Part shown: piece by piece, positions 2,602 through 13,775 of the stretch
Position numbering within the stretch: position 1 is the stretch's first letter
Layout of the letters: each line of letters opens with the position of its first letter
NCBI GenBank assembly: GCA_000482145.1
Contig: AUXH01000323.1
Coordinates: 1-21,497, forward strand
Length of the DNA: 21,497 nt
Source of the DNA: Strigomonas culicis
Taxonomy: Eukaryota > Euglenozoa > Kinetoplastea > Trypanosomatida > Trypanosomatidae
Reading direction: 5' to 3'
Position numbers and translations under genes: made by a program
Notes under the pieces: generated by a model
Database searches by the model: none
Seen by the model: only the letters and a program-made list of their open reading frames with translations
Told to the model about the DNA's origin: nothing

Positions 2602-3411
2602 TCACTTTTTGCGGTTCTTCCGTTTGCCTGACTTGCTGCGCTTGCCGTGTCCCTTTCGCGAGTGCTTCCGGATCTTGCGGATCTTCTCCAGCTCCTTCAT
2701 CACGTGCACCTTCGACTTGGTCTTGGCGGCGCCGCGCGTCTCCACACGGAGGCGCCGCAGCTCCTCCTCCACCACGGCGGGCAGATCCGCGAGGGTGCTG
2801 GCCGGCGAGCGACCGGCCGGCAGCAGCGGCCGCACCTCCACCGTCACGTACTCGTCGTCGATGCGAGCGGTGCCGCTGTCGGCCGCGGCGGCGCCCGTCA
2901 TGGCGGAGGGCATCGCGTGGACGCTCTCGGAGCGCATGGCCAACCGCTGGGCGCGGCGTCGCCGCTGCACACCGGAGTCGTCGTCCGCCTCCGCCTCGTC
3001 GTCCGCGCCGCTGTGGCTGGCCTGCTCCTCCTCCTGCGCGTAGCGCGGGATCTGGTAGCTGTAGTCGGGCAGGATGGGCACCTTCGCGAAGCTGTTGTAC
3101 GCCTTGCGGGCCTCCTCCCGCTGCTCCTTCCGCGTCTTGGCGTTCGCGCGCTGCATCTTCTTCTTCACGTCCACGAAGGCCTGCACGCGGCGCTCGTTCT
3201 TCTTCTTATGAAGTGTCAGGAGGTAGTCGCGGCGCGCCTCGTCGTCGAAGACGATCTTCTTCTCGCGCGTCGGCTTCGCCTTGGGCTTGACGTCTTTGCC
3301 GGTCGCCTTTTTGGTGAGCATGCGGAGGTAGTTCTCGCGACGGTCCGTCTTGAAGCCCTTCTTAACCTTCTTCTTTCCGTCATCCTCGCCGGTATCGACG
3401 TAGGCGCCCAT
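2602..3411 (-). CDS. NOL12: NOL12/RRP17 (Nop25)-family nucleolar protein
   Basis: 269 aa. A highly basic N-terminal half carries the Nop25/RRP17-type block at about residues 50-107: an IVFDDEARRDYL segment, then LHKKKNERRVQAF, then a charged helix of Lys/Arg/Glu/Gln. This matches the conserved part of human NOL12 and yeast Rrp17. Family members are nucleolar RNA-binding proteins; yeast Rrp17 is a 5'-3' exonuclease that trims 5.8S and 25S rRNA 5' ends. The middle (about residues 128-215) is acidic and probably disordered. The C terminus ends in a lysine/arginine-rich tail (GKRSKSGKRKNRKK) typical of nucleolar localisation. The ATG at 3411 is the first after a predicted acceptor (AG at 3474-3473), with no intervening ATG. 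The role in rRNA 5'-end maturation is inferred from the family. Confidence 0.75.
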   Translation of the reverse strand: MGAYVDTGEDDGKKKVKKGFKTDRRENYLRMLTKKATGKDVKPKAKPTREKKIVFDDEARRDYLLTLHKKKNERRVQAFVDVKKKMQRANAKTRKEQREEARKAYNSFAKVPILPDYSYQIPRYAQEEEQASHSGADDEAEADDDSGVQRRRRAQRLAMRSESVHAMPSAMTGAAAADSGTARIDDEYVTVEVRPLLPAGRSPASTLADLPAVVEEELRRLRVETRGAAKTKSKVHVMKELEKIRKIRKHSRKGHGKRSKSGKRKNRKK

Positions 3412-4839: not shown

Positions 4840-5820
4840 TCATTGAATGGCGTACAGGTCCTCCAGCCAATCTGTCTCTCCCTGGCCGCTCCGCCGTCGC
4901 TTGCCGGCGGCCCCCCTCGCGGCCTGCACCCCTCTGCCCCCGGCAGGGATCTGCGTCTCGTCCAGCGTTTCCTGCGGCTCCGCGTAGGTGTCCTGCAAGG
5001 GCGCCTCCCCGCCCAGCACGGCGCCGCCGGACGCGGCCAGCGCCTCGCCGTCGTCGTCGCTGGCGTGTGTGCTGCTTCCGTCGCCGTCGGCGTCGGGGCT
5101 GGCGCGGCTCGCGGAGGGGCCCTGGCGCGGGCCGCCGCGCGCGGCCTGCGCTTGCAGCGCAGCCGTCAGCTCCCGTATCTTCGCCTTCTTGGCGTTGACG
5201 ATGCGCTGCACGCCGGTGAGCAACACCTCGTCGCGCTCCGCGAGCTGGCCGGAGGTCACGAGCTCCACCTGGCGCCGCAGCCGCGCCTGCTCCTCCGCCT
5301 GGGCCGCGCCGTGCGTGGACGCCGTGTTGAGGTGGCGCAGCGCGCCGCCCAGCGCGCGCAGCAGGACGCCCGCGTGCACGGCGGACGCCTCCACCGCGTA
5401 GAGATCGAGCGATGAGAGGAGGAGAGAGACGTGCTGGGCGTGGCTCACCAGCCGCAGCTCCACCCTCGCGCAGCCGGCGCCGCACGGCGGCACGGGGGCG
5501 TCGATCTGCACCTCGTGCGGCGCATCCTCCGCCGGCCAGCGCAGCACGTCGTCCACGAGCTGGCAGTACATGGCGGGCGCCATCCCCGCGGGCGCCATCG
5601 AGCCCACCTGGACGGGCGCGCGCGAGGCGAAGGCGCGCAGTTCCGCACAGCCGCGCCCGTCGCCGAGGTGCAGCAGCGTGATGCTGAGGCGGTCCGTCGC
5701 CTGCGTCGCGCCGACCGGCAGGGCCGCGCTGCTGCCGCTGCCGCTGGCGGGGGTGCACGAGAGGTGCAAAAAGCTGGACCCGCGCGGCACGGGCAGCAGG
5801 CAGGACCACGATGGCTGCAT
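4840..5820 (-). CDS. XRCC4: XRCC4-like DNA end-joining scaffold protein
   Basis: 326 aa from Met at 5820, close to the 334-336 aa of human XRCC4. The N-terminal head contains SSFLHLSC near residues 15-22 (compare THFLQVSW in human XRCC4) and ends in strand-turn-helix VELRLVSHAQ...SSLDLYAVEAS...LLRAL (about 125-155). A long helix, probably a coiled coil, spans about 145-225 and contains IVNAKKAKIREL; N209, K211, K212, K214 and R216 parallel the human LNEKKTKIR motif at a similar distance from the N terminus. The tail is acidic and disordered, with a DETQIP site, a basic patch (GKRRRS) and a final LEDLYAIQ resembling the human C-terminal PEDLFDEI. XRCC4 dimers bind ligase IV and bridge DNA ends in classical NHEJ. 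An in-frame ATG at 5913 lies upstream of the predicted splice site (AG at 5855-5854), so the shorter start is preferred. XLF, PAXX and SAS-6 share the fold but not this motif set. Confidence 0.65.
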   Translation of the reverse strand: MQPSWSCLLPVPRGSSFLHLSCTPASGSGSSAALPVGATQATDRLSITLLHLGDGRGCAELRAFASRAPVQVGSMAPAGMAPAMYCQLVDDVLRWPAEDAPHEVQIDAPVPPCGAGCARVELRLVSHAQHVSLLLSSLDLYAVEASAVHAGVLLRALGGALRHLNTASTHGAAQAEEQARLRRQVELVTSGQLAERDEVLLTGVQRIVNAKKAKIRELTAALQAQAARGGPRQGPSASRASPDADGDGSSTHASDDDGEALAASGGAVLGGEAPLQDTYAEPQETLDETQIPAGGRGVQAARGAAGKRRRSGQGETDWLEDLYAIQ

Positions 5821-6133
5821 GTCGGTACGGAGGCACAATACGTACGTGTGTACCTGCAGGGAGGAAACGCAAGGGAACGAGTTGACACGAGAAGGGGAGA
5901 GAGAACTATACACGTTGTCAGCAGTATAGAGAGTTTATACAGAGCCATCGTTCTTCTTTTCGCTCTGAAAAGCAGACAAGCAACCAACAGAAGCGTACCC
6001 TTTTGTTTTGCCGTTTGTGCATACGTTTTGTAAAAAAAAAAAGAGATGCGTTTTACTTAATTGTTACTCGTACAATTTGGGCGCCGACGCCTCCTGTGAC
6101 AACGACCTTGCGGTGGGGCCCGACGACCGCCTG
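5821..6133. other. intergenic region
   Basis: 313 nt between MDH paralogue 1 and the XRCC4-like gene. It holds the XRCC4-like splice acceptor, more pyrimidine-rich minus-strand sequence, and an A10 run near 6032-6041. No gene is seen. Confidence 0.55.
5854..5905 (-). promoter_or_regulatory. predicted spliced-leader acceptor that sets the XRCC4-like start
   Basis: The minus-strand pyrimidine run 5905-5889, extended by a C/T-rich stretch, leads to the first AG (CTGCAG) at 5855-5854. The mature mRNA would start near 5853, leaving 33 nt before the ATG at 5820 and excluding the in-frame ATG at 5913. Confidence 0.55.
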
Positions 6134-11917: not shown

Positions 11918-12616
11918 TCACCACAACTTCCACCACGCCTTCTTCGCGGTGCTCACCTTCGCGTTCAGAACAGACATTTGCAGCGCATCAAGGACCGCAA
12001 AGACGTTGTTGCGCACGGCCTCAATGTTGCCGCTCGCGTCGACGGGCACCCACTGGTCCGCGCGAAAGGTGCCGCGCACCTCGGCGATGAGCCGGCGGTA
12101 CTGCAGCATGCGCTGCGCAATGGCGTCCGGCGTATCCTCTTCCTTCTGCTGCAGCGGCTCGCCGGTCGCGTCATCCTTGCCGGGGTGGATGGGCGGGTTG
12201 TAGATGGTGTGGTAGAGCCTGCCAGAGCCGGGGTGGAACTGGCGGCCGCCGAAGCGCGCCTGCATCACGTGGTCCGCGAGGTCCATCTCCACCACCACGT
12301 CCGCCTGGACCTTCTCGAACTCCTGCAGCAGCAGCGCCTGCCGCTTCGTGCGCGGGAAGCCGTCGAGCACGAAGCCATTCGCGCAGTCCGGCCGCCGCGT
12401 CGCGTCGCTGACCGCCTTCACGAGGAGCGTGTCCGGGATGGCCTCGCCCTTCTCCATCAGCTGCTTGAGCGTGTTGCTGTAGGGAAAGCTGCCGACCTGG
12501 ATGGCATTCCGCACCGCCTCGGCGGACGACACGTAGCAGAGGCCATAGCGCTCCTTCACCACGGACGACACGGTGGTCTTCCCGCCCTGCAGCGGGCCTT
12601 CGATAATCACTTTCAT
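11918..12616 (-). CDS. divergent adenylate-kinase-like nucleoside monophosphate kinase
   Basis: 232 aa. Adenylate-kinase fold: P-loop GPLQGGKTT at residues 7-15 (canonical GxPGxGKGT altered but still Walker A), DGFPRT, and a long LID with GGRQFHPGSGRLYH and DDATGEPL. The Arg normally in the RxDD element of the LID is replaced (QKEED), and the NMP-site TGDMLR is SAEAVR, though its Arg is kept. It ends in a Trp-rich tail (KKAWWKLW) absent from the neighbour. It lies next to the canonical adenylate kinase and is likely a tandem duplicate that has diverged; trypanosomatids carry many adenylate kinase isoforms. Phosphotransfer is plausible because the P-loop Lys and most arginines remain, but specificity or activity may differ. 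A predicted acceptor CAG at 12657-12656 precedes the ATG by about 39 nt. Confidence 0.85.
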   Translation of the reverse strand: MKVIIEGPLQGGKTTVSSVVKERYGLCYVSSAEAVRNAIQVGSFPYSNTLKQLMEKGEAIPDTLLVKAVSDATRRPDCANGFVLDGFPRTKRQALLLQEFEKVQADVVVEMDLADHVMQARFGGRQFHPGSGRLYHTIYNPPIHPGKDDATGEPLQQKEEDTPDAIAQRMLQYRRLIAEVRGTFRADQWVPVDASGNIEAVRNNVFAVLDALQMSVLNAKVSTAKKAWWKLW

Positions 12617-13118
12617 GATCGACTAGTGTACGCCTCCTTTAAGAAATCGCTTCTTCTGGATGAGAACAGTGTAAAGTGGGGGAAGAAGGGTCCAGTAGCG
12701 GCGCACCATACCACAAGGAGTTACGTTACATCCGTGTCTGTGACGAGAGCGAACAAGAACGTGCAGCACAAGTGAGATGCCTTTTTTCGTTTCTTTTGAC
12801 ATTCTCTCATCTTATATTGAAAGTGAAAAAAATGTCGTGGTGGTATTATTCTTTTTGTTTAAATAATTAAGTCAAGACATGATTTTTTACGAAGTTTTTT
12901 TGTTGTTTTCTTTTTTTAATATTAAGAAAAAGGAAATATAATGCGATAACGTTTTCCCAAATCATTATGAAACCCTCTGCTGCTACCCATTGTTGAAATA
13001 CAAAGAGGACAGCGAGACGTAAGGAGTGAGCAGCGTACGTTGCGACTCGCTTCTGTCCGCGTCCGCTATTCGCGCCTTGCCACTCCAACAGGCCTACCTA
13101 TTAACTATGGCGCGGCTG
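12617..13118. other. intergenic region between the adenylate kinase genes
   Basis: 502 nt. It contains the pyrimidine-rich acceptor region of the divergent kinase (about 12656-12690 on the minus strand) and AT-rich sequence around 12780-12960. No gene is seen. Confidence 0.55.
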
Positions 13119-13775
13119 CTAGTGGAGCCCGGTCGCAACGCCAATGGGATCGAGGATGCTGGCGATCGACTTGCGGACCTCCTGTACAATGCGGTTGGCA
13201 TTAATGCTAGTGAACACACCCTGGGACTTGTAGTACTCAGCCAGGGGCTGCGTCTCCTTCTTGTACAGCTCGAGGCGCTTCACGCACACTTCGCGGCGGT
13301 CGTCCGGGCGCTGGTACAGCGGCTCACCGGTGACGTCGTCCTTGCCGGCCACCTTCGGGGGCGCGTACTTCTCGTGGTAGGTGCGGCCACTCCCCTTGTG
13401 GATCCAGCGGCCGCCGGTGCGCTCGAGGATGACCTCGTCCGGGGTGTCGAACATGATGGCGGCGTCGATCTTCTCGCCGGCCTGGTCCATCATCTCGGCC
13501 TGGCGCTGGGTGCGCGGGAAGCCGTCGAGCACGTAGCCGTAGCGGCACTCCGGCTTCTCGATGCTGTCCTTCACGATGCCGAACACAAGTTCGTCGCTCA
13601 CGAGGGCGCCCGAGTCCATGGCGCTCTTGGCGCGGATGCCGTTGGGCGTCTGCTTGGTGACCGCGTCACGCAGCATGTCGCCGGTCGACAGGTGGCACAC
13701 GCCGTAGCGGTCCGTGACAAAGGGGCTCTGCGTGCCCTTGCCGCAGCCCGGCGCACCCATGAGAATAATTTTCAT
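13119..13775 (-). CDS. ADK: adenylate kinase, long-LID form
   Basis: 218 aa, normal for long-type adenylate kinases. All signature elements are present: P-loop GAPGCGKGT (residues 7-15), STGDMLR NMP-binding helix, DGFPRTQRQ, and the long LID with ERTGGRWIHKGSGRTYH, DDVTGEPLYQR and PDD. It catalyses 2 ADP = ATP + AMP and balances adenylate pools. The LID lacks the four-Cys zinc site, as in eukaryotic AK2-type enzymes. There is no obvious targeting sequence, and the protein starts directly at the first beta strand, so cytosol or intermembrane space is possible. The ATG is preceded immediately by a pyrimidine tract and AG, giving an almost leaderless mRNA apart from the spliced leader. Confidence 0.95.
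   Translation of the reverse strand: MKIILMGAPGCGKGTQSPFVTDRYGVCHLSTGDMLRDAVTKQTPNGIRAKSAMDSGALVSDELVFGIVKDSIEKPECRYGYVLDGFPRTQRQAEMMDQAGEKIDAAIMFDTPDEVILERTGGRWIHKGSGRTYHEKYAPPKVAGKDDVTGEPLYQRPDDRREVCVKRLELYKKETQPLAEYYKSQGVFTSINANRIVQEVRKSIASILDPIGVATGLH

Follow-up and report, generated by a model that had tools for sequence, protein, structure and literature searches.

Does a trypanosomatid, a member of a group thought to lack the ligase-IV-dependent end-joining pathway, encode XRCC4, and does its genome hold a ligase for such a protein to bind? A 2019 survey records Ku70 and Ku80 as present in trypanosomatids and Lig4 in none of those examined, describes Ku as lost in jaculum, and asks, leaving the matter open, why Ku should be kept where Lig4 is missing (PMC6635534). 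A 2025 review gives T. cruzi, T. brucei and Leishmania as having Ku and lacking Lig4 (PMC12578213). The window (the whole stretch of DNA analysed, 21,497 nucleotides) contains an open reading frame (ORF) of 326 residues that the original prediction took for XRCC4. We consider it probable (roughly three chances in four) that this ORF is a genuine, highly diverged XRCC4, but the identity is formally unproven: the sequence signal lies in one turn of the candidate coiled coil, and profile and fold comparisons fell short of significance. The ligase IV found in the same genome is the firmer and the more surprising finding of the two.

The XRCC4-like gene extends from ATG to stop (stop included) at 4840..5820 and encodes 326 amino acids. 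It had been proposed with no strand given; it is a real coding sequence on the minus strand, since it alone among the six frames over this stretch scores above zero for codon usage (+0.214 per codon, with 17 training genes from the same genome). Its third-position GC is 0.93 (0.90–0.93 in the neighbouring genes), and its GC at codon positions 1 and 2 exceeds that of the neighbours. In the sequence upstream, a C/T-rich stretch ending in CAG, 33 bases from the ATG (5854..5905, minus strand), is possibly a trans-splice acceptor; a search with a spliced-leader pattern gave no match. By Pfam, the neighbours on the same strand include a Nop25-like gene (2602-3411) and a pair of adenylate kinases (11918-13775). 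Between 6134 and about 11684, four genes of the malate/lactate-dehydrogenase type follow one another in tandem on this strand, and one of the four has clearly weaker Pfam scores.

All the motifs that had suggested XRCC4 were found where they had been reported or a few residues away, on the minus strand like the gene. From the N-terminus, inspection of the sequence gives SSFLHLSC (residues 15-22, 5755..5778), proposed as the counterpart of human THFLQVSW; NAKKAKIR (residues 209-216, 5173..5196), the XRCC4 ligase-IV-binding turn, also recovered by alignment; GKRRRSG (residues 306-312, 4885..4905), possibly a nuclear signal; and, at the very end of the protein, LEDLYAIQ (residues 319-326, 4843..4866), which resembles human C-terminal PEDLFDEI. 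Unconstrained local alignment added a head/coil junction, VSLLLSSLDLYAV (residues 131-143, 5392..5430), opposite human VSFRLGSFNLEKV, and AlphaFold2 (AF2) a candidate coiled coil at residues 147-228 (5137..5382), made of predicted helices 147-166 and 173-228. SSFLHLSC and LEDLYAIQ are thus present, but their likeness to human XRCC4 is not significant on its own: when the head piece (residues 1-134) and the tail piece are aligned to the human protein, they do no better than shuffled sequences (z -0.65 and -0.01, respectively). The hexapeptide LDLYAV within the junction (residues 138-143, window 5392-5409) also occurs in the second BRCT domain of human ligase IV, which was taken as coincidence.

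The sequence-based case for XRCC4 rests on the coil turn, the position of that turn and the junction. Residues 209-218, NAKKAKIREL, fit the turn N-x-KK-x-K-[IL]-R-x-L. An alignment was made of 12 listed homologues (11 named mammals and one other, drawn from the best 120 of 756 hits of an XRCC4 profile search) with working copies of the Arabidopsis XRCC4 and Lif1 sequences. Seven turn positions are invariant in it (L184, N185, K187, K188, K190, R192 and L194 in human numbering), and the ORF retains six, with V in place of the first L. A review describes human Lys187 and Lys188 in modelling of the ligase-IV-binding region (PMC4001069). A sample of 252,821 bases (~1.4% of the genome; two of the loci overlap slightly) holds 390 ORFs and 505,530 six-frame codons, and N.KK.K[IL]R occurs a single time in it, in the XRCC4-like ORF; this rarity is partly post hoc, the motif having prompted the comparison. 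The protein is rich in arginine (24 residues) compared with lysine (four), yet three of these lysines lie inside the turn, and KK.K[IL]R arose in none of 200,000 shuffles of its sequence. The turn lies 74 residues past LSSLDL in the ORF and 77 past LGSFNL in human XRCC4.

When the ORF was aligned locally with human XRCC4, junction and turn were joined collinearly and the score was reached by 15 of 1000 shuffles; the corresponding counts were 0 of 1000 against Lif1 and 172 of 1000 against Arabidopsis XRCC4. With shuffling confined to 20-residue windows, the human score was equalled 101 times in 1000 and the Lif1 score 22 times. The coil piece alone gave z 1.43 (90 of 1000), and with the turn removed 366 of 1000 shuffles did as well. 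Against working copies of human XLF and PAXX the ORF remained at shuffle level (z 0.30 and -1.05).

It had been anticipated that BLAST-level searches would miss such a gene, and the standard database searches were empty. No Pfam family matched the ORF at E<=10, the XRCC4 profiles PF06632, PF21924 and PF21925 included, and there was no match among NCBIfam or PDB sequences. Homologue searches returned nothing at E<=1 with the whole protein (8000 candidates sharing most words scored) or with residues 130-226 (663 candidates), in a database that includes eukaryotes but through which a relative is reached by exact shared words alone, so the result does not show that other trypanosomatids lack the gene. 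As a calibration, Arabidopsis XRCC4 matches PF06632 (E 6.9e-27) and yeast Lif1 matches no XRCC4 profile; because Lif1 fails too, the Pfam miss is weak evidence against XRCC4.

Three purpose-built XRCC4 profiles were searched against 890 sequences, made up of the ORF, 500 of its own shuffles and 389 other ORFs. The ORF took first place with each, at E 0.017 (12 XRCC4s plus Arabidopsis and Lif1), 0.16 (the same without Lif1) and 0.013 (coil only). In a leave-out test of 2,393 sequences, it scored above every non-XRCC4 sequence with seven of eight full or coil profiles (E 0.035 to 1.4); with the eighth, a mammal-only coil profile, it reached E 2.1 and a generic coiled coil won (8.9 versus 5.8 bits). 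It was significant with none of the eight (E 0.035 to 2.1), and held-out Lif1 scored higher. Profiles ending 20 residues before the turn gave no signal for the ORF in any of four trials (ranks 92, 429 and 110, and in one trial not listed). When Arabidopsis XRCC4 was left out of profiles truncated in this way it did give a signal (ranks 1 and 2); Lif1, treated likewise, did not.

Searches of the genome produced two candidates that were set aside. PF21924 has two matches on one contig (C69; E 0.013 and 0.06). Both belong to a long coiled coil of generic type, which has no N.KK.K[IL]R in the part examined; the ORF is not among these matches. Human XRCC4 has a single match in the whole genome, on another contig (C145; E 0.26), antisense to a long ORF that by eye is WD40-repeat-like, and this was taken as chance; here too the ORF was not matched. 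PF06632 had no match in the genome and its controls were equally matchless, hence the result is uninformative.

The single-sequence AF2 model of the protein has a mean pLDDT of 43. It contains low-confidence strands at residues 5-10, 17-22 (over SSFLHLSC), 43-50, 59-65, 91-95, 103-110 and 120-125, followed by helices at 127-141 (over VSLLLSSLDLYAV), 147-166 and 173-228, likewise of low confidence overall; confidence peaks at residues 211-230 (block pLDDT 77 and 78). The human XRCC4 head has a helix where the model has strand 91-95 and a strand where it has helix 127-141, and the model departs from the XRCC4 layout at these two places. A Foldseek search of the PDB with this model returned nothing at E<=0.001, and XRCC4 was not among the best 50 of 70 matches. 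The predicted model and the Foldseek outcome count as evidence neither way.

Taken against XRCC4 (human; Lif1 in yeast), the ORF shares the turn N-x-KK-x-K-[IL]-R-x-L and its distance from the head/coil junction, a run of strands followed by a long helix (predicted at low confidence), a basic patch in the tail and EDL[FY] near the end. In contrast, its head is unrecognisable by sequence, its composition is Ala/Gly-rich and Lys-poor, its profile matches are not significant, and 30 residues separate SSFLHLSC from LSITLLHLGDG versus 15 from THFLQVSW to FVITLTDG in the human protein.

The XRCC4 proposal had been made on the premise that the lineage has no ligase IV. For this genome the premise is wrong. 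Five ATP-dependent ligase genes were identified via six matches, and one of them, by profile and PDB-sequence matches, is a clear LIG4 of 1143 residues (contig C7, L008:2192-5623). It matches LIG4 at E 2.8e-89 versus 1.2e-42 for LIG3 and 8.3e-32 for LIG1, across the DNA-binding, catalytic and OB parts, one BRCT domain and the linker, and its KYDGER aligns with LIG4 KLDGER, so that the adenylation lysine is kept. The first BRCT scores 19.6 bits with PF00533 in the whole protein (cut-off 21.3) and 24.5 bits (E 3.1e-5) in a 187-residue fragment, and aligns to the LIG4 BRCT chains 3ii6_X and 1z56_C. The XRCC4-binding linker was detected by PF11411 at residues 907-930 (E 0.0061 and 9e-4; 17.1 and 19.7 bits, below the 22.1-bit cut-off). 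Residues 913-931, DPYCDSFYEDCTVDSLRYS, are identical to LIG4 759-777, DCYGDSYFIDTDLNQLKEV, at 6 of 19 positions (D759, Y761, D763, S764, D768 and L774 in LIG4 numbering), and human Phe766 is replaced by Tyr. The XRCC4-interacting region of human Lig4 is reported to consist of a beta-hairpin (759-770) with Phe766 as hotspot, then a helix-loop-helix clamp (PMC4786802). Relative to LIG4/Dnl4, the protein shares the DNA-binding, catalytic and OB parts, one BRCT and the linker, and differs in some 50 additional residues ahead of the first match and in its second BRCT: Pfam finds no family at E<=10 among its final 214 residues, where a diverged domain may lie. The search for a ligase with tandem C-terminal BRCT domains that had been proposed as a check therefore did find Lig4, but with one of the two domains detected.

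Ku80 is present as well (725 residues; contig C371, L007:802-2979). Its residues 31-724 align to 42-729 of a Ku80 in the PDB (E 5.6e-31), and its N-terminal alpha/beta domain, Ku core and C-terminal PIKK-binding domain (PF03731, PF02735 and PF08785) all exceed the Pfam cut-offs, the last (Ku_PK_bind) at E 2.4e-17. Its C-terminal end, EEEDEDILDLIS, resembles the acidic tail that human Ku80 has. Three Pfam models detected no Ku70, one of them being matchless also in the controls (prokaryotes by name), and PF09302 detected no XLF and was likewise matchless in controls that are prokaryotes by name; the assembly searched looks incomplete, and neither gene need be absent.

What else might the ORF be? 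A coiled-coil protein restricted to trypanosomatids and having no relationship to XRCC4, with a basic N-x-KK-x-K-I-R turn arising by chance, would account for a head without sequence signal and for formal profile and fold tests that all stay under significance, and it would be helped by the partly post hoc rarity of the motif in so small a sample. Such a protein would not be expected to have three of its four lysines gathered in a turn that is absent elsewhere in the sample, at nearly the human distance from the junction, in a genome whose Lig4 has an XRCC4-binding linker and so implies a partner; the Pfam miss, shared with Lif1, does little for it. We regard this explanation as unlikely, although it is the strongest of the alternatives. 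Another member of the XRCC4 superfamily, of the SAS-6, CCDC61, XLF or PAXX type, is much less probable. The strands and long helices, predicted at low confidence, may suit the superfamily generally, but the ligase-binding turn is a feature of XRCC4, and the scores to XLF and PAXX were equalled by 342 and 877 of 1000 shuffles. The ligase IV, whose retained linker would point to a retained partner, is also the strongest argument for assigning the ORF to XRCC4; no other candidate partner of Lig4 was found, in searches that missed the XRCC4-like ORF too.

Contamination of the assembly by a non-trypanosomatid, as a source of these repair genes, is slightly less probable again. It might be raised by the state of the assembly, a 17.7-Mb draft in 670 contigs that looks incomplete because RPS6e was not found and cytosolic uL3 is present as one piece at a contig end, and by the window contig itself, which has no sequence-identity tie to trypanosomatids (one gene tried, no PDB match). 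Against this, two marker proteins point to a trypanosomatid. Ribosomal protein uL3m (contig C11) is 87.8% identical to that of T. brucei (402/458) and 86.9% to that of L. tarentolae (397/457), these two being 88.6% identical to each other (404/456), and the fumarase adjoining Lig4 (L008:6023-7385) is 72% identical (169/235) to L. major FH2, which ties the Lig4 contig to a trypanosomatid; the species are our assignments for the matched PDB entries. The window, Lig4 and Ku80 contigs have in common long ORFs without interruption, arranged in same-strand runs, and a high third-position GC (0.81-0.94 for the genes in question), and two further ligases look kinetoplast-type. The near-equal uL3m distances put this genome about as far from T. 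brucei and L. tarentolae as these are from each other, which would fit, and does not prove, an early branch within trypanosomatids. The fumarase has a broken reading frame in the present assembly.

If the ORF is XRCC4, it would dimerise via its long helix, and the N-x-KK-x-K-I-R turn would hold the linker of Lig4 (residues ~907-931); the dimer would stabilise Lig4 and carry it to Ku-bound ends, and the lineage would thereby be capable of classical end joining. The protein may have diverged fast under GC pressure while keeping the three lysines of the ligase-binding turn. Whether a C-NHEJ scaffold had been retained or repurposed was left undecided in the original prediction; with a Lig4 that has its linker, a genuine partner kept from the ancestral complex is more likely than an orphan put to another use.

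In one trypanosomatid lineage at least, an end-joining pathway thought missing from the group thus seems to persist. Literature searches brought up no description of either Lig4 or XRCC4 from a trypanosomatid, among the papers listed or in passages of PMC6635534, PMC12578213 and PMC12153298. The repair set given in the first of these agrees with this genome in the presence of Ku80; this genome differs in having Lig4, a LIG3-type ligase and an XRCC4 candidate, and in that Ku70 was not found. The genome contradicts the extension of Lig4 absence to the whole group, not the species-level statements on T. cruzi, T. brucei and Leishmania. We lean towards a scenario in which one trypanosomatid lineage kept a working Ku-Lig4-XRCC4 complex together with a LIG3-type ligase and a Ku80 with its PIKK-binding domain, classical end joining being ancestral and its later loss on the way to Trypanosoma and Leishmania having left Ku behind. 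A trypanosomatid with Lig4 and XRCC4 would, if true, place loss of the pathway within the group and not before it, provide a natural point of reference for studies of genome-editing outcomes, indel spectra and what Ku does, and show how far XRCC4 can diverge with its ligase-binding turn retained.

The remaining ligase genes comprise one of LIG1 type (contig C451), the two on contig C1, which are probably kinetoplast-type given their size, their pairing and one PF14743 match, and one of LIG3 type (contig C34, L009:869-3601; E 7.7e-123 to LIG3). To our knowledge, LIG3 is unreported in trypanosomatids. In the last 321 residues of the LIG3-type ligase Pfam shows no domain better than E 1, and a match (E 3.8e-7) to the C-terminal portion of CHD1L, a macro domain, covers residues 662-829.
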